Shown in pieces: positions 1,006-26,148 of a stretch of 38,040 nt of DNA. The notes below the pieces were generated by a model. It was not told where the DNA came from. It ran no database searches and saw only the letters and a list, made by a program, of their open reading frames with translations. Made by a program: the position numbers and the translations under genes. Position 1 is the first letter of the stretch, and each line of letters opens with the position of its first letter. This stretch comes from a virus: positions 1 through 38,040 of IMG/VR virus record IMGVR_UViG_3300030233_000166, one strand, 5' to 3'.

Positions 1006-2643
1006 TTGCCTTCCACTTTCGGCATCGTTGATCTGTTCGCCGGTCCAGGCGGACTTGGCGAGGGATTTGCGTCCTTCGTCGCGGACGGCCACTCGCCGTT
1101 CCGGATCGGCATTTCGGTAGAGAAGGAGGCCTCGGCTCACCGGACACTGACGCTGCGTGCATTCCTGCGTGAGTATCGGTCGCGGCACGGCGCCTTACCG
1201 GTGCAGTTCATTGATTTCCATGCAGGACACGCTCCCGAACCGGACTGGTCAGAAGTTGACGCCGACGCGTGGCGACTCGCTATCGAGGAAGCGCGTGCCC
1301 TCGAACTCGGAACCGAGACAGCCGCGGACGCAATTGACGCCGCCATCGACAGCCTCAAGGCCAGTTACGACGATACGATCCTGATCGGCGGGCCGCCCTG
1401 TCAGGCCTATTCCCTCGTCGGTCGGGCGCGTTCGAGGGGCAAGGTCGGCTACGTGCCTGAGCAGGATGAGCGGCACTACCTGTTTCGCGAGTACATTCGG
1501 GTGCTTGATGAACTTCGTCCTGCCGCGTTCGTCATGGAGAACGTCAAGGGCATGCTCTCCTCGACGGTCGAAAGCCGCCTCGTGTTCGAGATGCTGATGG
1601 AAGACCTCTCCTCGCTTGGGACGGGCCACGGCCATAAGTACGAGATACGCGCCATCCTTATCCAGGATGGCAGGGCCAGCTTGCGGGAGGCCATGCGACC
1701 ATCGGATTTCATCGTCCGTGCGGAAGAGTTTGGCATTCCCCAGAAACGGCATCGAGTGATCATCATCGGGATCCGTTCCGACCTTGCAGATCGGGCTGCT
1801 CGAGCCGAAGTGGACGTGCCTCGTAACGTCAGGACCGTCGGCAGTACCATCCTGACTCTACCGGCATTGCGCAGTGGAATTAGCCGCGGCGGAGACGACG
1901 TTACGGTTTGGCGACAAGAGGTGGTCCAAGCAGCCGAGTTGCTTGCAGAGCTCACGAAGGGAAAAGACGACGTTCGACTTCATGAAGCGTTTGCCTCCTT
2001 GATTGAACGGCTGGAGGCGGAGATGCCCAGCCCCCGGGATTCGTCGGCTCTGCCAGACCAGTATGGTCACTCAAACGACGAACTGCTGAATTGGATTGAA
2101 CGGCTCGAGCTGCGTGCAGTTGCCCAGCACGCGACTCGAGGGCACATGAAGTCAGACCTTGGCCGCTATCTTTTCGCGTCGGTGTTTGGCTCAGTGCACG
2201 GTTACAGCCCCAAGGCCGCAGACTTTCCCTCAGCCATCAGCCCGGACCACCGCAACTGGCACACCGGCGTCTTCAATGACCGGTTCCGCGTCCAGGTTGC
2301 CGGGCAGCCTTCGAGCACCGTGACCAGCCACATCTCCAAGGATGGCCACTACTTCATACACCCCGACCCGGTCCAATGTCGCAGCCTGACTGTCAGGGAA
2401 GCCGCCCGTCTTCAGACATTTCCGGATGACTACGTCTTCCTTGGCAATCGCACTCAGCAATATGTGCAAGTCGGGAATGCCGTGCCGCCGTTCCTCGCGC
2501 GCCATATCGCGGCGTTGCTACATGAGGTTCTGGTGCCTGAAATCGGGGAAGAAAACGATCTCGACGACGATGCTTCTACCTTGAAGCCGGTTCCGGGTGC
2601 CTCAGAGCTTGAACTTCTCGAGCAAAACGAGGCCAAGAGTTGA
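1006..2643 (+). CDS. DNA (cytosine-5-)-methyltransferase
   Basis: A 545-residue C5-methyltransferase with the motifs in standard order: motif I DLFAGPGGLGEGF (SAM binding, residues 8-20), motif IV GPPCQAYS with catalytic Cys132, motif VI MENVKGM, motif VIII QKRHRVIIIG, and C-terminal motif X QVGNAVPPFLARH. It would transfer a methyl group from SAM to C5 of cytosine in a target set by the region between motifs VIII and X. That region is long here, about 150 residues. The start is TTG at 1006, preceded by AGGAG at 995-999. The gene is divergent from vsr and convergent with the operon ending at 2648, leaving only 4 bp between stop codons. The target sequence cannot be read from the protein. It is the modification half of the defence-type locus. 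Confidence 0.95.
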   Translation: MPSTFGIVDLFAGPGGLGEGFASFVADGHSPFRIGISVEKEASAHRTLTLRAFLREYRSRHGALPVQFIDFHAGHAPEPDWSEVDADAWRLAIEEARALELGTETAADAIDAAIDSLKASYDDTILIGGPPCQAYSLVGRARSRGKVGYVPEQDERHYLFREYIRVLDELRPAAFVMENVKGMLSSTVESRLVFEMLMEDLSSLGTGHGHKYEIRAILIQDGRASLREAMRPSDFIVRAEEFGIPQKRHRVIIIGIRSDLADRAARAEVDVPRNVRTVGSTILTLPALRSGISRGGDDVTVWRQEVVQAAELLAELTKGKDDVRLHEAFASLIERLEAEMPSPRDSSALPDQYGHSNDELLNWIERLELRAVAQHATRGHMKSDLGRYLFASVFGSVHGYSPKAADFPSAISPDHRNWHTGVFNDRFRVQVAGQPSSTVTSHISKDGHYFIHPDPVQCRSLTVREAARLQTFPDDYVFLGNRTQQYVQVGNAVPPFLARHIAALLHEVLVPEIGEENDLDDDASTLKPVPGASELELLEQNEAKS

Positions 2644-2647
2644 AGCA

Positions 2648-3409
2648 TCAGGCAGCATTTTTCGCCATGTGAGCCTGAGCTCGAGAGGCACAGGTGTCCA
2701 TGAGTGCGTCGGCCTCGTCGTCAGAGAGAGCCTCGAACAGGATCCCTCCGCCGTCTCGATTGAGAGCGATCATGAATTCCCTGAAGGCTCTCTCGCTTGA
2801 CGTGATCCATGGCTCCCGTCGCATTGCTCGGACGACGGCTCTGGCAAGAGGCTTCCGAGCGGCGGTGTTCGTGCGTTCGACGAAGTTGCTCCGAATGTCC
2901 GCGGTCTTCAGGATTAGTCGCAGCGCACCCTCGGGATCATCCGGATCTGCGATGCTCGCGATGTGCATGTTCCACCAGAGACGGGATAATGCATTGTCGT
3001 CGCGGATCGCGGTAAGTCCGGGAGCGAACATGTGGATTCGGACCTGGCCGTCGAGCTGCTCACCGATGTTCCCTGAAAGCCACCTGTCCCGCGAATAGCC
3101 AAGGCATTCGATGTGCGCCAGTCTGGCCCAGACACGCTCCTCCCGCGCGAGAGCAGGCGTCATCCCTTGAAGGGCCCGGAACAGGATCAGGGAGTTGTCG
3201 ATGTCGGCAGCTGCCGTCCTCGCTGTACCATCGAGCGTCGCCAGCAGGTCATGATCAACCTGAACCGTGCTGGTCTCGACTGCCCAGCCGTTATCATGCT
3301 CGAGATCAAGGAAGTCTCCTGCCTCATACCGGTCGCGGTTGGCGACGATGCTCTCCTTGAGCTCGGAAAGCTTCTTTTCCGAGAGATATTTGAGCGGCGA
3401 TACCGTCAT
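2648..3409 (-). CDS. DUF6339-like protein of the MORC-linked locus
   Basis: A 253-residue protein that I recognise as probably DUF6339. The segments EERVWARLAHIECLGYSRDRWL and, later, DDNALSRLWWNMHIA and GGGILFEALSDDEADALM are of the type conserved in that family, which has no established function. It is mostly alpha-helical, with no signal peptide, membrane segment or obvious nuclease motif. It is the last gene of the minus-strand operon and its ATG overlaps the stop of the preceding gene by 4 bp, so it is probably translationally coupled. DUF6339 genes tend to sit beside restriction-modification-type genes, which matches this context. The family name is from memory, and the function is unknown. 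Confidence 0.75.
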   Translation of the reverse strand: MTVSPLKYLSEKKLSELKESIVANRDRYEAGDFLDLEHDNGWAVETSTVQVDHDLLATLDGTARTAAADIDNSLILFRALQGMTPALAREERVWARLAHIECLGYSRDRWLSGNIGEQLDGQVRIHMFAPGLTAIRDDNALSRLWWNMHIASIADPDDPEGALRLILKTADIRSNFVERTNTAARKPLARAVVRAMRREPWITSSERAFREFMIALNRDGGGILFEALSDDEADALMDTCASRAQAHMAKNAA

Positions 3410-4242
3410 CTGTCTGCCTCCGCTACCAGCTGCGCCAGTCCGCTTGCCGGGCCGTCGAGGAGTTTCTGAGCGCTCTCGAGTATTGAAGTATCCGTCTTTG
3501 GATCAACGCCGCGCGCGTCGCAGCGGGCCGTGAAAGGAGCATGCCAGCGATATGGCTCGTATTGCTCTCCTTCGCTTCGCAGCGCATCAAGGACTTCCAT
3601 CACTGCCGGAAGATAGACAGAGTTCATGACCACAGGCTTTCCGGCCTTCTGCTCGCGCAAGAGCATGATCGTCTCGTGCGTCTTCTCTCCTGCGAGAATG
3701 GTGATGCGGTCTAGGTCCAGCTGAACTTTCAACATCCCTTCCGGAATACCCGTCGATCGGTCCAGTGCGAAGATGCTTTCAATGGGAGCAAGCTTCGCCT
3801 GTCCGACCGAGATGATGTGCTCCTCCCCGATCGCGATGATATCCCCATTTCCGAGATCAACCGGCGGCGAGAACTCCGGGTGAATGGTCCCCGGGTCCCA
3901 GCCAGCCAACTTTTCGTTCAACCAGACGATAGGTCGCAACGATACCCTGTTCAGCAGAACTCCGGCTGCGAAGTCGGTGCGGCCAGAGGGCCACGCTAAT
4001 GTACGAAGTTCAGTATGATACGTGTCCGCGCAGCGGACGAAGCAGCCCACCGACGCCTTTCCGGTCTCGATAAGTTGCCGGATCCCGTCTTCCGTCAGGG
4101 TGGTTTCGTGCTGAATGGAAAGCGCCCCCGTAGCGATGTCTTCGCTCAGGGTAAAGGCCATATCGAATTCACCGGCGGTGAAATCCCCTGTGTCGTGCGC
4201 AAGGACCGGATGCGGATAGCGCGTTTCTTCCGAGAACCTCAT
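3406..4242 (-). CDS. Conserved protein of unknown function between MORC ATPase and DUF6339 genes
   Basis: A 278-residue protein with no domain I can name. It opens with RYPHPVLAHDTGDFTAGEF and has alternating hydrophobic and charged stretches suggesting a beta-rich N-terminal half. A helical C-terminal half carries the conserved-looking EGMLKVQLDLDRITILAGEK and VVMNSVYLPAVMEVLDAL. There is no signal peptide or transmembrane segment. It overlaps the MORC ATPase stop by 4 bp upstream and the DUF6339-like start by 4 bp downstream, so the three should be made in linked amounts and may form one complex. Proteins opening in this way are, as far as I recall, found only in such ATPase-linked loci. 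A role as target sensor or effector would be a guess. Confidence 0.7.
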   Translation of the reverse strand: MRFSEETRYPHPVLAHDTGDFTAGEFDMAFTLSEDIATGALSIQHETTLTEDGIRQLIETGKASVGCFVRCADTYHTELRTLAWPSGRTDFAAGVLLNRVSLRPIVWLNEKLAGWDPGTIHPEFSPPVDLGNGDIIAIGEEHIISVGQAKLAPIESIFALDRSTGIPEGMLKVQLDLDRITILAGEKTHETIMLLREQKAGKPVVMNSVYLPAVMEVLDALRSEGEQYEPYRWHAPFTARCDARGVDPKTDTSILESAQKLLDGPASGLAQLVAEADR

Positions 4243-6140
4243 GCCGACGTTTCCTCGACTGCCGCGCGGCTTACGGCGATCAATTCGATCGGGCCATCGT
4301 ATGGTTCATCGAAAGAAACGGTGACCTTGCACCGTTCGCCGTCTTTCACGTCAACAGTAAGCACGCCAGAACCGGGAGTGCCCGCGTCCGCCGCCGTTAC
4401 GTTGAGGCCCTCGGGTGCGTTCACACCCGTGGCCTGGACCATCAATTCGATCGGTCCCGAGGCTTCCGGCGTGAAGTGCAATTCACGGGATGTGGCTGCT
4501 CCTGAGCCGTCTGAACGGATTAGGTTGCGTACCTCGCGGAGAACAACCGGCTCTCGATCTCCTGCAGTGCCGCGGCCGCCCGTGCCGCGACCGGTTCCGG
4601 AGCCGCTACCACCTCCTTTACCGCCAGAACCCGTCCCGGTCTGGCTTTGACCGCCTCGTTCGCCTCCAGCAGGGCTGGGTGCTTTTCGAGACTTCGATTT
4701 CCGTCGCTTGGACTCGTAGGTGTACCGTTCGGGGTCATGTTCTGCATTCGGATCGTCGGGTTTGTCGGTCTTGCCGGTCTCCGAGAAGAAACGACCCAGT
4801 TCGTCGAGGACGACGGAACCCTCGTGCTTGACGCCGGTCGTGGCCTTGATGATGTCCCGGAGCTCCTTGCCAAGGCGTCTCATGGCCTTGGCCGCTTCAT
4901 CACGTTTTGAGGCGTCAGGGAGCCGCTCCGCCGAGAAGCCATCATGTGCCGGATTCTCAAGTTTCTTCAACAACACGCCGGAGCCTTTATCCTCCGGTTC
5001 CACCACAACCACGAAGTCGCGCGAACCGCGGAATTGCTGTAGAGGGTGCCCAAAGTGTCGAAGGTTGTCCGTGATCAGCATTCCGTTTCGTATGAAGCCC
5101 ACGCGGCAGGGCATTCCCTCTTCGATCAGCACTCTGACGCGCATCTGCCCAAGCTTCGGGATCGTCAGAATCCTCTCTTCCGCACTGTCTGAAACGAGAC
5201 AACGGTAGAGCTGTGCCGCGAAGGTCAGATCGGCTTGGTGACCTGTGCGCTCCGCTGCATCGATTATGTCCTGTCTCGAGAAAAGGCTCTCGAGCGTGTT
5301 TCGGTTGATATTGATTCTGCCATCGTCAACTTCGAACACCATCTCTTCGCGATGGACGGCGCAGAAGAAATTCGAGACGAGCGAATAGGTCATGCGCTCC
5401 GCCCAGTCTTCAGCGGCCCGGAAGCCCATGCAGAATATTGAGGTTCCGGTCTCGGTGCGCTTCATCCAGTCCGGCACCAAGGCGGGATCCGTCACGGCGC
5501 GAAAGCCATCCGGGTCACCCCAATAGCCGGTTGCCCTGTGTTTCGTGCCGTCGGGCGCAGCGTGAGAAACCAGCTTCACCTTGCCCTGAGCAGCGAAGGC
5601 TTCCACGTCTCCGTCCTTGTATGTTGTTGCGTAGAAAACGGTCTGCAGGTCCGAGACGGCGAAGGAGGCGTTCTTTCCGATCCCGAAAGAGCCGCCGGAG
5701 TCAGCGGCATCCTTTGCCGTCACTCCCGAGGCCTTGACGAGTGAATGGAAGGGGGTTCCGTCCTTGTCGGGCGGACCAACAAGGCCTGTCGTATTGTGAT
5801 CGGTTATCTCGAGCACGGGTATGGAACTCGCACCAATCACCTCGGAGGCATTGGAGAAGAACTCCTTCTCGCGATCCTGTTCGGCCTCTGCGCGGCAAGC
5901 AGCGATCGTATCGCCGAGCAGGTCATGGGACGGAAAGCTCGAGGGGTCGAGTTTCAATACATTGAAGGACATCCTGACAGGGTGCTCGGGCAGGCCCGTC
6001 GCCGCGTCGCGACTGTTCTGCCCGGCTTCTCGAGCGCAGCTGGCATAAGGCGCATCACGGAACGTCTCGATTCCGGCGTCGCCAAGCCCCTCCTTCTCGC
6101 CCGCCTCGTTGGTCAGGAATCTCAGAACTGGTTCAACCAT
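4239..6140 (-). CDS. MORC/MutL-type GHKL ATPase
   Basis: A 633-residue protein with the GHKL (Hsp90/MutL/MORC) ATP-binding fold at its N terminus. Motif N1 is REAGQNSRDA (E38 the likely general base, N42 the Mg ligand). The DxG-like motif is EITDHNTTGL (D114), and the glycine lid is SGGSFGIGKNA (about 148-158). Middle and coiled-coil-like segments follow, for example SKRDEAAKAMRRLGKELRDI near 411-430. After them comes a Gly/Ser/Arg-rich linker (about 491-528) and a beta-rich C-terminal domain of about 100 residues. Iyer, Abhiman and Aravind described prokaryotic MORC ATPases in restriction-modification loci, and they are thought to clamp or loop DNA. The start ATG at 6140 has an AAGGAG about 11 nt upstream. 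It lies 44 bp after the small gene at 6185-6406 and overlaps the next gene by 4 bp. Confidence 0.85.
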   Translation of the reverse strand: MVEPVLRFLTNEAGEKEGLGDAGIETFRDAPYASCAREAGQNSRDAATGLPEHPVRMSFNVLKLDPSSFPSHDLLGDTIAACRAEAEQDREKEFFSNASEVIGASSIPVLEITDHNTTGLVGPPDKDGTPFHSLVKASGVTAKDAADSGGSFGIGKNASFAVSDLQTVFYATTYKDGDVEAFAAQGKVKLVSHAAPDGTKHRATGYWGDPDGFRAVTDPALVPDWMKRTETGTSIFCMGFRAAEDWAERMTYSLVSNFFCAVHREEMVFEVDDGRININRNTLESLFSRQDIIDAAERTGHQADLTFAAQLYRCLVSDSAEERILTIPKLGQMRVRVLIEEGMPCRVGFIRNGMLITDNLRHFGHPLQQFRGSRDFVVVVEPEDKGSGVLLKKLENPAHDGFSAERLPDASKRDEAAKAMRRLGKELRDIIKATTGVKHEGSVVLDELGRFFSETGKTDKPDDPNAEHDPERYTYESKRRKSKSRKAPSPAGGERGGQSQTGTGSGGKGGGSGSGTGRGTGGRGTAGDREPVVLREVRNLIRSDGSGAATSRELHFTPEASGPIELMVQATGVNAPEGLNVTAADAGTPGSGVLTVDVKDGERCKVTVSFDEPYDGPIELIAVSRAAVEETSA

Positions 6141-6674: not shown

Positions 6675-7070
6675 TTACCGGCGCGCAATGCTGAAATGTG
6701 CTTCTTGTCTGCTCCACTCCAACGGAAACGGCTCAAGCACCTTTCTCAGCGTCACCTCAGGCCCCTGCTTCCCGTCCAGGATCGCCTCGACGATGTCGGG
6801 CGCGAGCAGCATGAGTCGGAGGACGCGGGTCATGTAGGAGGGCGCGATCCCCTCGCGCTCGGCCAGTTCGGCGATGGTTGCGAACTCGCCCGACTCCAGC
6901 ATGCGCTTCCAGCGGAACGCGCGGGCCATCGCCTTGACGAGCGTGTTGTCGGTCCGCCGCGGTTGCGTAGCGCTGTCCGGCAGCCGCATCTCCTTCCGCC
7001 CACCGCGCTTCACGACGCGGAACGGCGCGTGGAGTGTCACGATGTCGGGGATCGGAGCGCCGCGATTCAT
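6675..7070 (-). CDS. ParB-like HTH protein coupled to the serine recombinase
   Basis: A 131-residue protein starting MNRGAPIPDIVTL. A basic N-terminal half (VVKRGGRKEMRLPD) is followed by a helix-turn-helix of ParB/KorB type: ATIAELAEREGIAPSYMTRV, then LRLMLLAPDIVEAIL and LEPFPLEWSRQ. It should bind DNA. The ATG overlaps the recombinase TGA by 4 bp (ATGA), which fixes the start and makes coupling likely. It is the last gene of the recombinase operon. A role as recombination accessory or directionality factor is plausible from position alone. No enzyme motif is visible. Confidence 0.8.
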   Translation of the reverse strand: MNRGAPIPDIVTLHAPFRVVKRGGRKEMRLPDSATQPRRTDNTLVKAMARAFRWKRMLESGEFATIAELAEREGIAPSYMTRVLRLMLLAPDIVEAILDGKQGPEVTLRKVLEPFPLEWSRQEAHFSIARR

Positions 7071-8377
7071 GCGGCTTCTCCGATGCCGCCGGCCAGCATC
7101 TCGCGCGCGAGGCCGCCGAGCCCGTCGACGCGGAGGCGCACATTGAGGCCGTCCGCGCCGATGTCTACGCGCTCTACCAGCAAAGCCACGATGCGTGCGT
7201 GCTCGGCGGGGAAGAGTTCGTCCCACAGTGGATCGAGTTGCTGCAGGGCCGTGCGGGCGTCGGCCTCGGTGATGTCGCTGTCATGGGTGCGCGTGGCCTT
7301 CCACGTGCCCGCCACGATCTCGGGCTGTCGGAAGACGGCGCGAAGCTGGTCGATGACCGCGGCCTCGATTTCGCCCGCCGGCACACGGCCGACCGGGCAG
7401 GATCCGGCCCCGTGTTTCAGCACCGTCTGACTTACGTAGTAGCGGTAGAGTCGGTCGCGTTTGCGGGTGTGCGTCGGCGAGAACGCGGCACCATCGGGCC
7501 CGAAAAGCAGCCCCTTCAGCAACGCCGGCGTCTCGGCGCGTGCGCGTGCGGCGCGCTTGCGGGGGCTTTCCTGAAGGATGACGTGAACCCTGTCCCAAGT
7601 TTCGCCGTCGATGATCGCGTCATGCTCGCCGGGGTAGCTTTCGCCCTTGTGGACTGCCTCGCCGATATAGGCGCGGTTGTTCAGCATCCGATACAGGTAC
7701 TTCTTGTCGATCCGGTTGCCCCTTGGCGTGCGGATGCCGCGCTTGGCGACCTCGCGGGCCAGTTCCGTCCCAGATCCAGTCTCGAGGAAGCGGGCGAAGA
7801 TCCAGCGAACATGCGCGGCGGCTTCCTCGTCGACCAACAGCTTACGGTTCTCTACACGGTAGCCGAAAGGCGGCACCCCGCCCATCCACATCCCTTTCTT
7901 CCGACTGGCGGCGACCTTGTCGCGGATGCGCTCGGCGGTGACCTCGCGCTCGAATTGCGCGAACGAGAGCAGGATGTTCAGCGTCAGCCGCCCCATTGAG
8001 GTGGTGGTGTTGAACGACTGCGTCACCGAGACGAAGGTCACGCCGTTCCGGTCGAACACCTCCACCAGCTTGGCGAAATCGGCCAGCGAGCGGCTGAGCC
8101 GGTCGATCTTGTAGACCACGACCACGTCGACCAGCCCGTCCTCGATGTCCTCCAGCAGCCGCTGCAGGCCGGGGCGATCCAGCGTGCCGCCGGAGATGCC
8201 GCCGTCGTCGTACTGATCGCGGACCAGCACCCATCCCTCGGAGCGCTGGCTGGCGATGAACGCCTCGCACGCCTCCCGCTGGGCGTGGAGCGAGTTGAAC
8301 TCCTGCTCCAGCCCTTCCTCGGAGGATTTCCGGGTGTAGATCGCGCAGCGCTGCTTCCGGACGATGGGCTTGGTCAT
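7067..8377 (-). CDS. Serine recombinase (resolvase/invertase-type integrase)
   Basis: A 436-residue large serine recombinase. The catalytic domain holds AIYTRKSSEEG (nucleophile Ser in the RKS motif), YDDGGISGGTLDRPGLQ and YKIDRLSRSLADF (active-site Arg). It is followed by the Recombinase domain (PFGYR...NRAYIGEAVHKG) and a C-terminal region. The usual zinc-ribbon cysteines of large serine integrases are mostly missing: the first CxxC position reads FGPDG and only GSCPVGR remains. The ATG at 8377 overlaps the DUF2924 stop by 4 bp. The frame stays open far upstream, but that stretch is the DUF2924 tail read in another frame. It would cut and rejoin att sites to integrate or excise the prophage. 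Confidence 0.93.
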   Translation of the reverse strand: MTKPIVRKQRCAIYTRKSSEEGLEQEFNSLHAQREACEAFIASQRSEGWVLVRDQYDDGGISGGTLDRPGLQRLLEDIEDGLVDVVVVYKIDRLSRSLADFAKLVEVFDRNGVTFVSVTQSFNTTTSMGRLTLNILLSFAQFEREVTAERIRDKVAASRKKGMWMGGVPPFGYRVENRKLLVDEEAAAHVRWIFARFLETGSGTELAREVAKRGIRTPRGNRIDKKYLYRMLNNRAYIGEAVHKGESYPGEHDAIIDGETWDRVHVILQESPRKRAARARAETPALLKGLLFGPDGAAFSPTHTRKRDRLYRYYVSQTVLKHGAGSCPVGRVPAGEIEAAVIDQLRAVFRQPEIVAGTWKATRTHDSDITEADARTALQQLDPLWDELFPAEHARIVALLVERVDIGADGLNVRLRVDGLGGLAREMLAGGIGEAA

Positions 8378-8988
8378 GTCTGGCCCTCCGCTTGCGCTCC
8401 GGGCGTTGGCGGCTGCGGACGCTCCACTGGAGCCTCCGCTGGCCCGCGGCCACCGCCGCTCACCCTCCGGTTCTTCTCCCGGCCCGATGCTTGCGCATCG
8501 TGCGTACAGCGCTGCGGACGCTCCACTGGAGCCTCCGCTGGCCTGCGGCCACCGCGCTTTAACCCAAAGAAGACCCAGCCGTTCCAACGCGTGCCGGTAA
8601 TGGCGCGGGCGATGGCGGAGAGCGACCTGTAGGGTCGCCCCTGCCATTCGAAGCCATCTGCAGTGACGGTGACGACGTGCTCGACGCCTTGCCACTCACG
8701 GATCAGCCGCGTCCCGGCGATGGGCATGGTGTCGGCGCGGACGCGGCTCTTCTTGCGGTCCCCGCCGTCCAGTTCCTCACCCAGCCGTTCCAGCCGCCGG
8801 ACCGTCTCGGCTTTCAGCCCGCCATAGGCGAGTTCCTGGATGCGGTACGCCAGCCGACTCTCAAGGTAGCGGCGGTTGAACGGCGGCGGCTCGCTGTCGA
8901 ACAGGTCGCGCCACTGCGCCTTCAGCTCCGGCGTCGTCGCGGCCTTCAGCGCGGCCAGGCGCGCGGGGATGGGATCGTGGGTCGTCAT
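8374..8988 (-). CDS. DUF2924 domain protein
   Basis: A 204-residue protein starting MTTHDPIPARLAAL. The ATG at 8988 has GGAG 6 nt upstream and overlaps the previous stop by 4 bp. The body matches DUF2924: WRDLFDSEPPPFNRRYLESR, LAYRIQELAYGG, and a C-terminal DNA-binding-like module with GTRLIREWQG, VTVTADGFEWQGRPYRSLS and AIARAITGTRWNGWVFFGL. The last about 60 residues are not family sequence. They are low-complexity and contain two copies of PAEAPVERPQ, encoded by a duplicated 45-bp palindromic element. DUF2924 genes regularly precede serine recombinases in alphaproteobacterial prophages. The function is not established. Confidence 0.9.
   Translation of the reverse strand: MTTHDPIPARLAALKAATTPELKAQWRDLFDSEPPPFNRRYLESRLAYRIQELAYGGLKAETVRRLERLGEELDGGDRKKSRVRADTMPIAGTRLIREWQGVEHVVTVTADGFEWQGRPYRSLSAIARAITGTRWNGWVFFGLKRGGRRPAEAPVERPQRCTHDAQASGREKNRRVSGGGRGPAEAPVERPQPPTPGAQAEGQT
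8412..8456. repeat. 45-bp direct repeat with internal palindrome, copy 1
   Basis: First of two 45-bp copies, differing at one base from 8511-8555. The core (8415-8439) is a near-perfect inverted repeat: GCGGA-C-GCTCCA-C-TGGAGC-C-TCCGC. It lies in frame inside the 3' end of the DUF2924 gene and adds PAEAPVERPQ to the protein. Its look is that of a REP-like palindromic element. Confidence 0.85.
8511..8555. repeat. 45-bp direct repeat with internal palindrome, copy 2
   Basis: Second copy, in the same orientation, starting 99 bp after copy 1. That distance is a multiple of 3, so both copies are read in the same frame of the DUF2924 gene. The palindrome core is 8514-8538. The one difference from copy 1 is a T for a C about 34 bases in. 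Confidence 0.85.
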
Positions 8989-18598: not shown

Positions 18599-21223
18599 AT
18601 GATCGACCTCAACGACATCGCGGTCCCGAAGACCCGGCACGATCTGGCGGCGGTGAAGGAGCGGCTGGCCTGCACGGCCGCCGACTGGCTGCCTGGTCTC
18701 TTCCCCGAGGCCCGGCTTGCGCGGGACCGTCGATCCTTGCGCTGCGCAGACCTCTCCGGGCGCCCGCCGCGAAAGGAGGGCTCGTGCACGATCCATCTCG
18801 ACGGTCCCTATGCCGGCTGGGGCTTCGACTACGCCACCGGCGAGCGGGCCGGTCCGATCGACCTGATCGCGCAGGCGACCGGTCTTTGTGACGGGTCGCT
18901 CTTCGACGAGGCGGCGCGGCTCGCAGGGATGGACCATCCGGCGCCGCGGTCCGCGCCGAAGTCGCCCATACGCACACGTCCCGACCACTCGGCCGAGATC
19001 GCGCGGCTGGTCCACGGGGCCGTGCCGATCGCGGGTACGCCTGGCGAGACTTATCTGCGCGCTCGCAGGCTTTCGGATCCCGGATCGCCCGACCTTCTGT
19101 TCCATCCCGATCTTCCGGACTTCGACAGCTGCCGCGGCTGGCCCGGCCTGATCGCGATCCTGCGGCTGCCGAGCGGGGAGCACGCGCCGGGCATCCACCG
19201 CACCTTCCTGCTCGATGACGGCAGCGCGAAGGCGCCTCCCGGCAAGAAGATGCTCGGCAGCGTGAAGGATGCCGTCGTCCGGCTGTTCCCGATGCCCGCG
19301 GACGGCCACATCGGCATCGCCGAGGGGATCGAGACGGCGCTCGCTGCCCGCGTGCTATTCGGCACACCGGTCTGGGCGGCGCTGTCGGCCGACGGTCTGG
19401 CGCGGTTCCAGTGGCCCGAGGGCGCCCGCCGCGTCACCATCTATGCAGATGCCGGAGACGCCGGCCGCCAGGCGGCCGCGACGCTCTCGGACCGCCTGAA
19501 CCGCGCCGACATCCCAAACGAGATCGTTGCCCCGCTGCATGGCGACGACTTCAACGACGACCTGCAGCGTGGTGCAGGCGCCAAGGATTACGAGCGCCAA
19601 GCAGGTACGGCAGCTGAACCGCAGGCCGAAGAACCGGACGCGGTCACGCCCATCGTCGCCTCCGCCGACGATCCCGCGACGCTGATCGCCGCGGCCGAGG
19701 CACTGACCAATCCACCTGAGTTCGAAGCGCTGTCCACGCTGCTTGGGCGCATCGCGCTGGCAAAGCTCGACCCGCTGCCCGAGCGGCAGGTCATCGCGCG
19801 GATCAAATCCACGACCGGCATCGGCATGTCGGTCCTGACTCAGCAGCTGGCCGAGCTCCGCCGCCGTATGAACGCCACCGGCGACCCGCACGCGCCGATC
19901 CCGAAACCCGCCTGGTTCAGGCGCCTGCGGCTCGACCTCGCCGGCGCGCCCGAGCGCAACGAGGCCAACGTCATCGTCGCCCTGACCTCAGATCCGGCCT
20001 TCGCCGGTGTGCTCGCCTTCGACGAATTCGGACAGGAGATCGTCGTGCGCCAGCCGTTGCCGTGGGACGCCGGAACCGCCTCCCTCCCGCGTCCCTGGGA
20101 GGACGCCGACGACATTCGCACCGCGGAATGGCTGCAGCTGCGCGGCATCAACGTGGCGCCGGTGGTCGTCAGCCGCGCAGTCGGCGCCGTCGCCCGCGAG
20201 CTGCGCATACACCCAGTCCGCGACTGGCTCGATACCCTGACATGGGACGGGACGCCCCGGATCGAGACCTGGACCAGCGCCTATCTCGGCGCGGAACCCT
20301 CGGCGTTCAACCACACCATCGGCGCGCTCTGGCTGATCTCGGCCGTCGCCCGCATCTACCGTCCCGGCGTGAAAGCCGACCACATGCTGATCCTCGAGGG
20401 GCCGCAGGGCGCGCGCAAATCCACCGCGATCAAGGTGCTGGCCGGCGAGGAATGGTTCACCGACGAGCTGCCGGAGCTTGGGTCCAAGGACGCCGCGCTG
20501 CACATGCAGGGCGTCTGGATCCTGGAGATCGCCGAACTCGACGCCATCGGTCGCGCTGAGGTCTCTCGGATCAAGGCGTTCCTGACCCGCACGACCGACC
20601 GCTTCCGCCCGCCCTACGGTCGCTATACTGTCGAGGTGCCGCGCCAGTGCGTCTTCGCTGGCACCGTGAACCCCGACACCTATCTGCGCGACGAGACCGG
20701 CAACCGCCGCTTCTGGCCCCTCCGCTGTGGGACGATCGACATCGCGGCGCTCGCGCGCGACCGGCACCAGCTCTGGGCAGAAGCCGTCCACCGTTTCCGC
20801 GCCGGCGCGATCTGGTGGATCGACGACCCGGCGCTGCTGGCAGAAGCCCGCGAGGAACAGGACCGCCGCTACCAGTCCGACGCCTGGGACGACCTAATCG
20901 AACACTGGCTGACGCACGAAATCCGGACCGTCTCCGACGGCTTCCCCGATTACGGCAATTCCCGCACCGAAAGCGTGCCGCGCCCCGAGCCGCTGGGCGA
21001 CGTATCGGTCGGCGAGATCCTTGAGGAGGCGATCGGGCTAGAACCTGCCCGCTGGACCCGCGGCGACCAGATGCGCGTCTCGGCCTACCTCAAGGCGAAC
21101 GGCTGGGAGCGGTACCGGCGGCGCGACGAGGGCGGGCGCGAGGCGTCGCGCGAGTGGCGGTATCGCAAAGGTCATCCTCAGTCGCCACAAGAGACGATGG
21201 CAAACGACCGATTGCGGCCATGA
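18599..21223 (+). CDS. Toprim-VapE primase/helicase-like replication protein
   Basis: An 874-residue multidomain protein. The N terminus (residues 1-110) resembles a CHC2-like primase zinc region but lacks a clear zinc set. A Toprim domain follows at about 239-320, with IAEGIETALAA (metal-binding Glu) and TIYADAGDAG. A linker leads to a virulence-associated E (VapE) ATPase domain at about 540-790, with RDWLDTLTWDG, Walker A LEGPQGARKST (about 598-609), WILEIAELDAIGR and GNRRFWPL. The C terminus is a winged-helix-like region (ANGWERYRRR). It should prime and unwind phage DNA. The ATG at 18599 lies 8 bp after the helicase stop, and its first codons match those of the genes at 15519 and 15731. 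Confidence 0.92.
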   Translation: MIDLNDIAVPKTRHDLAAVKERLACTAADWLPGLFPEARLARDRRSLRCADLSGRPPRKEGSCTIHLDGPYAGWGFDYATGERAGPIDLIAQATGLCDGSLFDEAARLAGMDHPAPRSAPKSPIRTRPDHSAEIARLVHGAVPIAGTPGETYLRARRLSDPGSPDLLFHPDLPDFDSCRGWPGLIAILRLPSGEHAPGIHRTFLLDDGSAKAPPGKKMLGSVKDAVVRLFPMPADGHIGIAEGIETALAARVLFGTPVWAALSADGLARFQWPEGARRVTIYADAGDAGRQAAATLSDRLNRADIPNEIVAPLHGDDFNDDLQRGAGAKDYERQAGTAAEPQAEEPDAVTPIVASADDPATLIAAAEALTNPPEFEALSTLLGRIALAKLDPLPERQVIARIKSTTGIGMSVLTQQLAELRRRMNATGDPHAPIPKPAWFRRLRLDLAGAPERNEANVIVALTSDPAFAGVLAFDEFGQEIVVRQPLPWDAGTASLPRPWEDADDIRTAEWLQLRGINVAPVVVSRAVGAVARELRIHPVRDWLDTLTWDGTPRIETWTSAYLGAEPSAFNHTIGALWLISAVARIYRPGVKADHMLILEGPQGARKSTAIKVLAGEEWFTDELPELGSKDAALHMQGVWILEIAELDAIGRAEVSRIKAFLTRTTDRFRPPYGRYTVEVPRQCVFAGTVNPDTYLRDETGNRRFWPLRCGTIDIAALARDRHQLWAEAVHRFRAGAIWWIDDPALLAEAREEQDRRYQSDAWDDLIEHWLTHEIRTVSDGFPDYGNSRTESVPRPEPLGDVSVGEILEEAIGLEPARWTRGDQMRVSAYLKANGWERYRRRDEGGREASREWRYRKGHPQSPQETMANDRLRP

Positions 21224-21342
21224 CACTGAACGTGAACAAAGTTCTGTTGAGCAAAGTCGTGAAGCCGATGCATGCAATGATTTTGCTAGTGATTCTGACT
21301 ACAGCACTTCAATCAAGGCAGATATTTACGCGGTGTTCGCAG

Positions 21343-22110
21343 TTATCGGCAGCGCACCCACTCAATCAGCGGATAGCAATAACTATTCGCTGATCCTGTG
21401 CCAATAAATCCCCATTTCTCGGCCGTTTCGAAAAACGAAAGATAGGAGCTTTCGTCCTCTCCTGAGCATGAAACATCGAAATCAACCGCGCGCTCGTAGC
21501 CTTTCTCTATACAAAATTGCCTAGCATTGTCATCGGCATGGCTCACGCCTTCGTCGCCGTCATAATTTCCAAAAATTCGATCCGGCTCGCGATTGCCCGG
21601 ATACAACACGACTGGCGGAACGAAGCAACCTGGTGCTCCGCATACTTCCTGCGACTCTGTGGGGATCGAGAGTCGTTCTCCTCTCTGAAGTGCCGCTTCG
21701 ATATCGGCGGCGTATGTATCGATGAGGCCCGACGCGACCAAGAATCGAAGGTTTGCGTCTGCTCGGCTCGGCTCTGCAGTGACTGATTGGAGAATCAGCG
21801 CCTGCTGCGCTGCTTCACGCTGCGCGCGCAATTCAGCCTCACCGGATGCTCTTTCGACCTCAAGCCCTTGCTCGGCTGTGAGGCGAGCATTTTTCGACTG
21901 ATAGTATTGCGACACGGCGGTGGCTAGGACGGATGCAGTCGCGCCAATCACGGCTACCAGGATCGGTCCAAATACGGCCCAATTCAATGTTCGTTTGGAT
22001 CGAAGCGATCTAAGTTCTTCCTCGACCGCCTGTCGACGCTCGTCCGCAAGTCTCTCGCGCTCGAGCGCGTTGCGTTCGCGGTTCAATAGTATCTGTTCTT
22101 GCTCAGACAT
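21343..22110 (-). CDS. Coiled-coil membrane-anchored protein, partner of the nuclease-like gene
   Basis: A 255-residue protein. Residues 5-38 form a charged coiled coil (NRERNALERERLADERRQAV). Residues about 44-66 are one transmembrane helix (AVFGPILVAVIGATASVLATAV). A second helical charged stretch follows, then a Cys-containing C-terminal domain (VCGAPGCFVPPVVLYPGN, ending in EWVRCR). No catalytic motif is recognised. It follows the staphylococcal-nuclease-like gene by 21 bp, on the strand opposite to the replication genes, and its sequence is visibly richer in A and T, so it looks like acquired cargo. The 119 bp between it and the VapE gene hold nothing I recognise. Confidence 0.75.
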   Translation of the reverse strand: MSEQEQILLNRERNALERERLADERRQAVEEELRSLRSKRTLNWAVFGPILVAVIGATASVLATAVSQYYQSKNARLTAEQGLEVERASGEAELRAQREAAQQALILQSVTAEPSRADANLRFLVASGLIDTYAADIEAALQRGERLSIPTESQEVCGAPGCFVPPVVLYPGNREPDRIFGNYDGDEGVSHADDNARQFCIEKGYERAVDFDVSCSGEDESSYLSFFETAEKWGFIGTGSANSYCYPLIEWVRCR

Positions 22111-22131
22111 GGCACGGCAACATTCAGCATA

Positions 22132-22944
22132 TCAACTGGATATTACAACCAATTCGTGAGGCTCGACGGTCATCTTGACCGTATTGTCTCCCTTTTCGAT
22201 AACATTGTCGAAGCCGGTGAAGACGCCTTGACTGGGTATACTCACCCGCTCTTCCTTTTCGTGTTCGATCCATTCCTTCAAGTTGGCGAAAGGCCTATCG
22301 GGATCGAAGAACGTATCGTCCCTTACAAACGCGTCGATCCGCCGCCAAAGCTTGGGGAAAATCGGTGCCATGCTGTCCGGGTGGCCGGTCCAGTCAGCGC
22401 CGAGTGTCGAACGATCTGCGGACCAGACACCCATGCCGCCGACCTTGGCCTTGTTCGAAACCTCTATGCAGCGTTCTCGCAGGTCGTCGAACAGCGTGTC
22501 GTAAAAGAGCGGATACGCGTGCCCGTTTTCCAACTGCTGGACATTAATGCTCTCCATGATGTCATCAGCACTCAGAAAGACATTCGCACCATCCTGAAGC
22601 GTTGTGTCACCCGCAAAGACGAATGCGATCGGTCGGCCGTGCGGGCCCAACTGAGTACTAAAAACATGACCCCGAGCGCTCTGAGTGCCACCATTCGTTC
22701 CAGCAAGATCAAGGTTGGCGGCGGTCGCATCGGAAGAAAAGGGATCAAGCGCTGAGCTTTCCATTGTATCTATGGCTTCATATCGTAGTTGAATACTCCC
22801 GTTATTCATATTGACCTTTGGTGGCTTCCCGCGCCGTCGGAGTAGAAAGAGGGGAGAAGGATCATCGGGAACAAAACGAAGCGAGTCTCCGTCCGGTCGA
22901 CCAAACGAGGGTTCGAAACGGCCCTTTATCAACGTGAATGGCAT
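22132..22944 (-). CDS. Staphylococcal-nuclease-like protein (thermonuclease fold), cargo
   Basis: A 270-residue protein whose first 170 residues fit the SNase fold. It has RPDGDSLRF (metal-binding D, 18-20), IQLRYEAIDTMESS (R54, D59 and E62 in the places of SNase R35, D40 and E43), GPHGRPIAFVF (R104 in the place of R87), then SINVQQLENGHAY and KVGGMGVWSAD, as in the C-terminal helices of SNase. About 100 residues of unknown fold follow. No signal peptide is seen, so it acts inside the cell. The ATG at 22944 with GGAG 9 nt upstream is preferred to the TTG at 22959. It is the first gene of a two-gene operon with a membrane protein. A defence or exclusion role is inference. Confidence 0.78.
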   Translation of the reverse strand: MPFTLIKGRFEPSFGRPDGDSLRFVPDDPSPLFLLRRRGKPPKVNMNNGSIQLRYEAIDTMESSALDPFSSDATAANLDLAGTNGGTQSARGHVFSTQLGPHGRPIAFVFAGDTTLQDGANVFLSADDIMESINVQQLENGHAYPLFYDTLFDDLRERCIEVSNKAKVGGMGVWSADRSTLGADWTGHPDSMAPIFPKLWRRIDAFVRDDTFFDPDRPFANLKEWIEHEKEERVSIPSQGVFTGFDNVIEKGDNTVKMTVEPHELVVISS

Positions 22945-23165
22945 AGCAAGTTTCTCCAACTGACTGAACGGTCCACGTCAACAATCCAAGACGTCAACGC
23001 ATCAATCAAGTGAAAGGTGATAGTACATCACCCAACGTATGACGGAAGCCGCCGTCGGCTGACGAGCTGTCAGGTCCGCCGAACGGTCGTTCTTGCGATC
23101 TAAAGTGCCGGGACACTTCACGCCTTCGTTGCCCTTCAGCTGTCTCCAGGCGCTGCACGCGCTGT
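22945..23165. other. Upstream region of the cargo operon, no gene recognised
   Basis: About 220 bp before the start of the nuclease-like gene. It must carry that operon's promoter on the minus strand, but no good -35/-10 pair stands out. With 23166-23591 it forms a gene-free stretch of about 650 bp. Open frames here are composed of repeat translation (VPT/VGT) and are not credible proteins. Confidence 0.4.
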
Positions 23166-23462
23166 GTCCCAACCTCCCCGATGGTCCCAACCGTGTCCCA
23201 ACCTCCGGAGGGGGTTGGGGACACGAAAAGCCATTCAAAAACAACGGTGTCCCCAACCTCACTCCGTGGTCCCAACCTTTTGCTACACATTCATGTGGGA
23301 GAACGGAAAAGGTCGGGAACATGTTTTTCTATACGAAAAGAGAAGGACCCCCGTTGGGGACACCGAGGTTGGGACCACATCCGGGCAACCCATTGGAGTG
23401 AAACGATAAAGGGCTGTCCCAACCCCCTCGAAGGTTGGGACCAGGCGGTCTGAGGTTGGGAC
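23166..23462. repeat. Cluster of a 9-bp motif GTCCCAACC in both orientations
   Basis: GTCCCAACC occurs at 23166-23174, 23184-23192, 23195-23203, 23269-23277 and 23416-23424. The complement GGTTGGGAC occurs at 23367-23375, 23433-23441 and 23454-23462. Three forms with one extra G or C lie at about 23213-23222, 23249-23258 and 23353-23361. That makes about 11 sites in 300 bp. The pair 23416/23433 is a perfect hairpin. Spacing is irregular, so it is not a CRISPR array. It lies between the replication genes and the RuvC-like gene and could be an iteron-type origin or a protein-binding array. Confidence 0.75.
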
Positions 23463-23591
23463 CGGGACGGGCAGCACGTCGATCTTCGCCGGCCGCGTCG
23501 TCCCTCGTCATTTTCGCTTTGGCCGAGGACCGCCGGATGCTACATCTTGCGGTGACCGAAGCCGAAGGCCCACAGCTTGTGAGCCTTCACG

Positions 23592-24113
23592 ATGAACACA
23601 CTGATCCCCGCGCAGGACATCCACCCCGAACCGGGTGCGATCAACCGGTCCTGCATCCTCGCCCTCGACCTCGGCACCACGACCGGCTGGGCGCTCCGCT
23701 GCCATGACGGACTGATCACCAGCGGCACGGTCAGCTTTCGCCCCGGACGCTTCGACGGTGGCGGCATGCGCTACCTGCGTTTCACCAACTGGCTGACTGA
23801 ACTCGACCGGCTGTCGGGGCCCATTGCCGCGATCTGGTTCGAGGAAGTTCGCCGCCACGCCGGGACCGACGCGGCCCACATTTACGGCGGGCTGATGGCT
23901 ACCCTGACCTCGTGGGCCGAACTGCGCGGCGTTCCCTACGAGGGCGTTCCAGTCGGCACGATCAAACGCCATGCCACTGGCAAGGGCAACGCGCCGAAGA
24001 AGGCGATGATCGCCGCGGCCCGAGCACGAGGGTTCTCACCCGCCGACGACAATGAGGCTGACGCCATCGCCATCCTGCATTGGGCCATCGAGACGAACGG
24101 TGGCCTGACATGA
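23592..24113 (+). CDS. RuvC-like Holliday junction resolvase
   Basis: A 173-residue protein with the RNase H-like fold of RuvC and phage resolvases: first strand ILALDLGTTTGWAL (D26), IWFEEVRRHAG (E84) and the C-terminal acidic motif SPADDNEADAIAIL (D153/E155/D157). It would cut four-way junctions before packaging. The ATG has no strong ribosome binding site. It follows the 9-bp motif cluster by 130 bp and overlaps the next gene by 4 bp. Confidence 0.85.
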   Translation: MNTLIPAQDIHPEPGAINRSCILALDLGTTTGWALRCHDGLITSGTVSFRPGRFDGGGMRYLRFTNWLTELDRLSGPIAAIWFEEVRRHAGTDAAHIYGGLMATLTSWAELRGVPYEGVPVGTIKRHATGKGNAPKKAMIAAARARGFSPADDNEADAIAILHWAIETNGGLT

Positions 24114-24731: not shown

Positions 24732-24878
24732 CGCGGTTCGTCAATCGACTTCGCATTAGGTCGAACCGTTCGGGAGAACCATTTTACGTCTGTGTCGCCG
24801 CACGCGGCTAACCTTCTACAGTGACACGGTGCCGGCGAGGCGCTAGCATGCACTAGGCAGGGTCCACTGGAGGTGAGG

Positions 24879-25736
24879 ATGGAGCTCCAAAAGCTTTTTG
24901 CGGCAGTTGTAATCCTTTGTGCATTTGACCGCGCAGCACTCGCTCAACAGGTAGTCTTTGGCGATTCTTATGATAACGAGATGGCAAAATTCATTCATTC
25001 CACCAGTCAATCTGTAAGGTGGGCCAATCAAGATCTGTCGCGCCATGTTGTTTGCAACAGACACGATAGCAAGGGCTTGATCTTCACTTGGACACCACCG
25101 GGCTTTGGTTCCGGGCTAGACTGCCCATTGGCAGTGAACCAATGTGCCATATTGGAACGAGACGCAGTGGGTGAACTCGAGGAATCCGACAGCTCTATCG
25201 GCTTCATCCAAGATGATGACGGAAGCCACTCCGTAGTTGCGCTTGTTGACACGGAGAGTTCTTCTTACAACGGTGGCTGGCTTGGCAGTCGATTCTTAAC
25301 CTTCCTGTCTGGACCGCCGCAATGCGCGCCACGCGTCCTAGAGATAAACTCTTGGGCAATCCTCCAGCAGGACTCAAAAGACGTCGCAATTGATATTTCG
25401 TGGCACCCGCCCGGTGTGCGAATTGCATATGGCATCGACCGCTCAAGATACTCGGATGAGCAAATTGAATCTATCATTGAGGCTCTTTCGGAAACTGACT
25501 CAGAGGCGTCGGAGCAGTCAGTACAGGATGTAATCAGTGAGGAGGCACTGTCGTGGCTGGGTGATGACTTTTCAATTAGTGCAGTGATCGTATTTCAAAC
25601 ACCGGAAGACGGCAATAATACAGCGTCAATACGGTTCCCAACCGAGGGCGAAGTGCAGTCTGTAACGGTTCCAGTTTTTTTTCTATCTGGTGAGACCCTT
25701 CTAGCCGCTGCGCTCTTCGACGGATTGGCTCCCTAG
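24879..25736 (+). CDS. Exported protein of unknown function, cargo
   Basis: A 285-residue protein with an N-terminal signal peptide (MELQKLFAAVVILCAFDRAA, cleavage after ALA before QQ). The mature part is acidic, Ser/Asp/Glu-rich and has four scattered cysteines (VVCNRHDSK, LDCPLAVNQCAI, PQCAPRVLEIN), suggesting disulfides in the periplasm. No catalytic motif is known to me. The ATG at 24879 has GGAGG 5 nt upstream and is preferred to the GTG at 24873. Its codon use is visibly more A/T-rich than that of the phage genes, a sign of separate origin. A membrane protein gene follows after 28 bp. Confidence 0.75.
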   Translation: MELQKLFAAVVILCAFDRAALAQQVVFGDSYDNEMAKFIHSTSQSVRWANQDLSRHVVCNRHDSKGLIFTWTPPGFGSGLDCPLAVNQCAILERDAVGELEESDSSIGFIQDDDGSHSVVALVDTESSSYNGGWLGSRFLTFLSGPPQCAPRVLEINSWAILQQDSKDVAIDISWHPPGVRIAYGIDRSRYSDEQIESIIEALSETDSEASEQSVQDVISEEALSWLGDDFSISAVIVFQTPEDGNNTASIRFPTEGEVQSVTVPVFFLSGETLLAAALFDGLAP

Positions 25737-25764: not shown

Positions 25765-26148
25765 ATGTTTCTGGAGACAATTAAAACATTTAAGGGTATC
25801 GGAGGCGCGCTCGGCGGCCTTTTCTTGGTCATCTATCTTGAGAGTATTCTGCTGTTTCCTGAGGCGCTTTCATTCTATTTGGTTCCCGCCTCCTTATTGG
25901 CGGGACTGCTAGGATACGCGCTCTGCACCCAAGTGGCAGGACCGTCCCGGATCAGATGGGGGCTAATAGGTACGGCTATTTCACTCTTGATCGTTGTTGT
26001 TCTCCTGCAGGTTTTAAGCTCTGATAGGATCTTTGTAATATGGGGTATCGTTTTATTCTCAGTGACTGGGAATATTTCCCTTTTTCTTCTCCTTGGTGAG
26101 GCCATAGAGAAATTTTTAGGACCTCCACCGCCACCAGCCGCTCAGTAG
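25765..26148 (+). CDS. Four-helix integral membrane protein, cargo
   Basis: A 127-residue protein that is nearly all membrane, with hydrophobic helices at about 14-33, 37-56, 65-84 and 89-111. It has short charged loops and a C-terminal proline stretch (FLGPPPPPAAQ). No family is recognised. It lies 28 bp after the exported protein gene, with the same A/T-rich composition, so the two are probably co-transcribed cargo. Small membrane proteins of prophages often act in superinfection exclusion or lysis, and no evidence for either is seen. Confidence 0.7.
   Translation: MFLETIKTFKGIGGALGGLFLVIYLESILLFPEALSFYLVPASLLAGLLGYALCTQVAGPSRIRWGLIGTAISLLIVVVLLQVLSSDRIFVIWGIVLFSVTGNISLFLLLGEAIEKFLGPPPPPAAQ

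Follow-up and report, generated by a model that had tools for sequence, protein, structure and literature searches.

A staphylococcal-nuclease-fold gene and an orphan membrane-protein gene as candidate defence cargo in a variable slot of a temperate phage family

Why would a temperate phage carry a compact A/T-rich insert that encodes a nuclease-like protein and a membrane protein, and do the two proteins act together? The locus that raises this question lies in a 38,040-base virus record, analysed over its full length (the window), which carries temperate phage genes: Sak4-like, Cas4-like, helicase, ParB-methyltransferase, large terminase, portal and major head protein genes and a serine-type integrase gene. 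The phage family probably has its hosts among the Alphaproteobacteria. The integrase and the tRNA gene at the left end of the window together suggest a provirus end at a tRNA gene.

51-140: tRNA-Ser (GGA), left end of the window
7067-8695, minus strand: large serine-type integrase
21343-22110, minus strand: gene 2, orphan single-pass membrane protein of 255 aa
22132-22944, minus strand: gene 1, SNase-fold protein of 270 aa with an ATG start

A sequence-only reading of this DNA had described two minus-strand genes 21 bp apart within A/T-rich prophage cargo, opposite to the replication genes, and both the coordinates and the composition were confirmed: the GC content of 21170-23160 is 0.537, whereas the left and right sides have 0.687 and 0.697 (54% versus 69-70% for the phage genes around it). 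Codon scores did not separate sense from antisense for either gene, and the call of gene 1 was therefore based on conservation, its ATG agreeing with the invariant MPF start of its family, and that of gene 2 solely on its open frame, position and membrane-protein architecture. Promoter and terminator scans returned signals at or below chance. A separate cargo region at the left end of the window (1006-6140; GC 59-60%) encodes a DrmMII/MTase_II-like cytosine methyltransferase and, on the opposite strand, three genes matching the PADLOC candidate PDC-M33A/B/C, the third containing DUF6339; it was unmatched in 80 related loci, most of which end short of the region.

The context of the pair was analysed by fetching 80 of 224 primase-related viral contigs, using the primase, and aligning these related prophages to the window. 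Homology to all of them breaks off at the end of the primase gene and is found again from a repeat cluster onward, defining a variable slot (slot 1) which holds gene 1 and gene 2 in the window and a match to neither in any of the 80 relatives.

18599-21223, plus strand: DUF7146/Toprim/VapE-like primase-helicase gene, conserved left flank, its last codons entering the slot
21166-23158: variable slot 1; homology to the 80 related prophages ends at ~21165 and resumes at ~23158-23166
23160-23470: cluster of GTCCCAACC/GGTTGGGAC repeats, iteron- or operator-like, conserved right flank
23592-24113, plus strand: RuvC-like Holliday junction resolvase, next conserved gene to the right

The repeats at the right edge occur in both orientations and are possibly origin iterons or operators. 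In one relative (L062) the unit is replaced by GTCACCAACC throughout the stretch read, so that the repeat unit seems to co-evolve within the phage. Both anchors were present in 68 loci, where the slot was empty in 32 and filled in 36, the inserts being unrelated and 0.2-6.4 kb long. The sharp edges hold in prophages with a primase up to 95% identical, and the cargo is unrelated even at primase identities of at least 90%, which indicates fast turnover. A second variable slot was observed further right, where homology to the relatives ends at ~24664 and resumes at ~26214; in many relatives it measures ~90 bp, in others it reaches ~4.9 kb, and here it contains two low-GC plus-strand ORFs, at 24873-25736 (without a confident family match) and 25765-26148 (scanned against PHROGs only, with no match).

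The 35 inserts in which genes were called yielded 52 protein clusters and, with loci assigned to one type by common clusters, 19 cargo types. Seven of these types match known defence systems strongly and two more weakly (PADLOC), counts which are lower bounds as the scan took in 20 cargo proteins. By site, 16 of the 36 filled slots have a strong defence match, or 19 of 36 if the weak ones are included. The yardstick for this enrichment was simply the expectation that complete defence systems are rare in phage intervals taken at random.

Dsr1, in L038: PADLOC 3e-135
IetAS, in L041, L054, L065 and L066: IetS E=0
Lamassu, in L112: LmuA 1e-167, LmuB 3e-199
CBASS, in L050, L068, L070 and L117: cyclase 2e-121, phospholipase effector 2e-149
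RmrAT, in L048, L060, L063 and L075: RmrA 4e-173, RmrT 6e-78
AbiE, in L042: AbiEii 1e-204
PD-Lambda-2, in L061: PD-Lambda-2_B 1e-141
Lamassu-like (weaker), in L056: LmuB-like 8e-21
PD-Lambda-2-like (weaker), in L069 and L073: 1e-20

Slot 1 therefore shows the features of a hotspot, namely conserved flanks, sharp edges, unrelated inserts and several known defence systems. Its cargo also extends beyond defence, with a short-chain dehydrogenase in L051 and a glyoxalase-like protein in the L090 type. The fillings of L040, L043, L053, L072 and L103 are without a PADLOC match and represent further candidate systems, as does that shared by L077, L078, L090 and L104, for which the glyoxalase-like domain is the only Pfam match.

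The product of gene 1 had been read from the sequence as an SNase-like protein with the catalytic Arg, Asp and Glu in place, and this was borne out by structure prediction and by conservation. The AlphaFold (AF2) model reached pLDDT 94.7 and pTM 0.91 with an SNase fold present, and its PDB matches in Foldseek were without exception to staphylococcal nuclease (best E 6e-7, probability 1.0, TM ~0.7 by target). The Pfam SNase family PF00565 matches 11 of 21 gene 1 relatives (best E 8e-8), and a family profile searched against the PDB ranked thermonucleases first (E 0.004). The protein by itself gave no family match in Pfam, NCBIfam, PHROG, PADLOC or the PDB (phmmer).

Gene 1 active-site set: D18/D20, R54, D59, E62, R104

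R54, D59, E62 and R104 are invariant in 21 full-length family sequences and align with SNase R35, D40, E43 and R87 in the profile match to the PDB; D20, present in 20 of the 21, was paired with SNase D21 by motif and strand order and not by alignment. On the model, then, gene 1 encodes a true SNase-fold protein for which SNase chemistry is well supported structurally. It shares with the staphylococcal nucleases and thermonucleases of PF00565 the fold and the full catalytic positions, but differs in having insertions before and after the DGDS motif, in lying itself below Pfam detection, and in a conserved C-terminal region of ~85 residues (~185-270, from PKLWRR on) which is without a Pfam match. 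It also differs in that no signal peptide is apparent, for which reason the protein is predicted to be cytoplasmic.

Gene 2 fits the earlier description of a single-pass membrane protein with a coiled coil, in that one TM helix is predicted within a long coiled coil. An unaligned AF2 model gave a single helix of 109 residues (3-111; pLDDT 74-94 over most of it) which includes the hydrophobic stretch; the C-terminal half was modelled without confidence, and the model was kept out of the fold search because of this low confidence.

Gene 2 protein, ~1-42: coiled coil
Gene 2 protein, ~43-66: hydrophobic stretch, TM segment
Gene 2 protein, to ~111: coiled coil
Gene 2 protein, C-terminal part: contains six Cys

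The positive-inside rule predicts an N-in, C-out topology which would place the six Cys outside. Like gene 1, it gave no useful match in Pfam, NCBIfam, PHROGs, PADLOC or the PDB (phmmer); a match to flagellar FliD (E 0.6) in these searches of the two proteins was rejected as chance. A possible gene 2 relative at E 0.008 was rejected as it covered 53 residues only and contained two stops. Relatives of gene 2 were absent from the viral contigs, from plasmid and phage collections, from 21 SNase-carrying genomes, and from 385 sampled Alphaproteobacteria and 299 sampled Pseudomonadota (684 genomes, overlap possible).

The distribution of gene 1 was addressed by a scan of genome contigs, which identified 27 relatives. 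Their identities run from 78%, for one in a Rhodobacteraceae assembly, to ~32%, and they come from Alphaproteobacteria, Nitrospira, Bacteroidota, Cyanobacteria, Thermomicrobiales and others, with a single archaeal assembly among the sources. The family is thus patchy across several bacterial phyla plus that archaeal assembly. It is also rare, being found in two of 385 sampled Alphaproteobacteria, the Ruegeria query genome included, and only in that Ruegeria genome among 398 sampled Pseudomonadota. Remoter relatives annotated as thermonuclease family protein lie on Methylobacterium and Streptomyces plasmids; the slot DNA itself had no match in plasmids. No relatives in other viruses were detected by sequence, and structural matches of the gene 1 model to phage and giant-virus TNases were remote. 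In Nitrospira assemblies (L023, L026 and L027) the SNase-family gene occupies a shared locus; as assembled, three copies are interrupted by frameshifts or internal stops.

Most gene 1 relatives have a convergent gene downstream and appear monocistronic, and a search for a conserved partner of family members, membrane protein or other, found none; even the nearest relatives have no conserved neighbour in common. What lies next to the family differs between loci and is for the most part metabolic (GMC oxidoreductase, multicopper oxidase, ferritin-like, lipase, halogenase-like and TRAP transporter genes). A GMC oxidoreductase, a sugar-dehydrogenase small subunit or a ferritin-like gene adjoins the SNase-family member on the plasmids L031, L032 and L034 and in L007 and L022, a type of neighbourhood which recurs for distant members in Alphaproteobacteria and Streptomyces. 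Among ten neighbours of chromosomal SNase relatives tested, PADLOC gave only weak matches; the position of these relatives outside recognisable defence neighbourhoods weakens a dedicated-defence reading. None of the 27 SNase loci has a gene 2 relative next to it, and the adjacency of the two genes was found nowhere else in the 684 genomes, plasmids, phages and viral contigs searched. A recurring two-gene pair is consequently not supported. Outside the window nothing supports cooperation of the two proteins, which is suggested only by their adjacency in one genome.

The contents of the slot make cargo selected for defence the leading reading. We regard the pair as cargo of a defence hotspot in a temperate phage family, the full mechanism standing at about an even chance, and probably as a candidate superinfection-exclusion or abortive-infection module using an SNase. 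Such a module would defend the lysogen from other phages by cutting nucleic acid, the target of the SNase being either entering phage DNA or, as abortive infection, host nucleic acid, and the gene 2 protein would anchor, sense or restrain the nuclease at the inner membrane. The defence idea of the sequence-only reading is thereby kept, with a putative function, on the strength of known systems in the same slot, and a recurring pair is given up. Counted against this explanation are the failure of either protein to match the defence database (PADLOC), the presence of some non-defence cargo in the slot, the SNase relatives which adjoin metabolic genes, usually alone, and the single occurrence of the pair with its orphan gene 2. 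Alternatively, the slot may hold two unrelated single-gene cargoes, a stand-alone SNase of a patchy bacterial family and an orphan membrane protein which do no joint work, the latter perhaps with an exclusion-type role of its own. This account is possible, if somewhat doubtful: SNase relatives up to 78% identical lack such a neighbour and are mostly monocistronic, and gene 2 has no relative in any collection searched, but the two genes share a strand, a 21-bp gap and an equally low GC, and one insert fills the slot.

That the SNase is non-defence lysogenic cargo doing general host work (scavenging of nucleotides, turnover of damaged nucleic acid, or a function connected with the oxidases near distant relatives) appears unlikely. 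The Methylobacterium and Streptomyces plasmid relatives adjoin GMC oxidoreductase, sugar dehydrogenase small subunit and ferritin-like genes, those in L007, L015 and L022 have a GMC oxidoreductase, multicopper oxidase or ferritin-like gene as neighbour, and part of the slot cargo is metabolic; yet at least seven of the 19 cargo types are known defence systems, and the nearest relatives have no conserved neighbour in common. Two small adjacent genes, one encoding a nuclease, in a slot which also houses AbiE and RmrAT, could further bring to mind a toxin-antitoxin-like module in which the SNase toxin is sequestered by the membrane protein for maintenance and not defence. We consider this extremely improbable, since the SNase family is kept without a partner in most genomes, so that a freely toxic protein is unlikely.

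Under the defence reading, the need for an antitoxin could be removed by Ca2+ switching. The pair might form a new membrane-linked superinfection-exclusion system, in which low free Ca2+ would keep the SNase idle in the cytoplasm, the membrane protein would tether it to the inner membrane, and phage DNA entry, through an influx of Ca2+ or a disturbed membrane, would activate it at the injection site. The Ca2+ step is suggested by the known requirement of staphylococcal nuclease for Ca2+ and by the conserved metal ligands. Taken jointly, these steps are quite unlikely.

Among known systems, slot 1 resembles the defence hotspots of P2-like and P4-like prophages and satellites (Rousset et al., 2022; PMC9122126) in its fixed position between conserved phage genes and in variable cargo rich in anti-phage systems, but it belongs to another phage family, and it is bordered by a VapE-like primase on one side and by an iteron cluster with a RuvC-like gene on the other; no description of it was found in the literature searched. 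Regardless of the function of the pair, the slot is a usable discovery tool, with sharp alignable edges and with almost half of the sites empty among the anchored relatives; it also contains ~10 further cargo types without a strong or moderate defence match, each of them a candidate.

Membrane-linked anti-phage DNA targeting has precedent in SNIPE, Zorya and Kiwa (PMC13190303, PMC12904381), and the gene pair belongs to none of these. SNIPE is one polypeptide with a TM segment, DUF4041 and a GIY-YIG nuclease (PMC13190303); the combination of a nuclease with a single TM element and the idea of DNA cutting at the membrane are common to both, but here the nuclease is of SNase type, with no Pfam match to GIY-YIG or DUF4041 and no TM segment in the gene 1 sequence, and the TM element belongs to a second, orphan protein, for which an outward-facing position is predicted. 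Zorya and Kiwa (reviewed in PMC12904381) likewise combine a membrane protein with a separate DNA-targeting cytoplasmic protein, but the present pair has no motor pair and different folds, and a PADLOC scan of both proteins detected no Zor or Kwa component homologues. The literature searched, which leaves out bioRxiv preprints and many subscription papers, yielded no SNase-based defence. The pair is unique cargo within the defence hotspot of a temperate phage family and a good candidate for a new defence module; should it prove protective, it would be the first SNase-based anti-phage module as far as that literature shows, and would add a new nuclease type to the membrane-linked defences.
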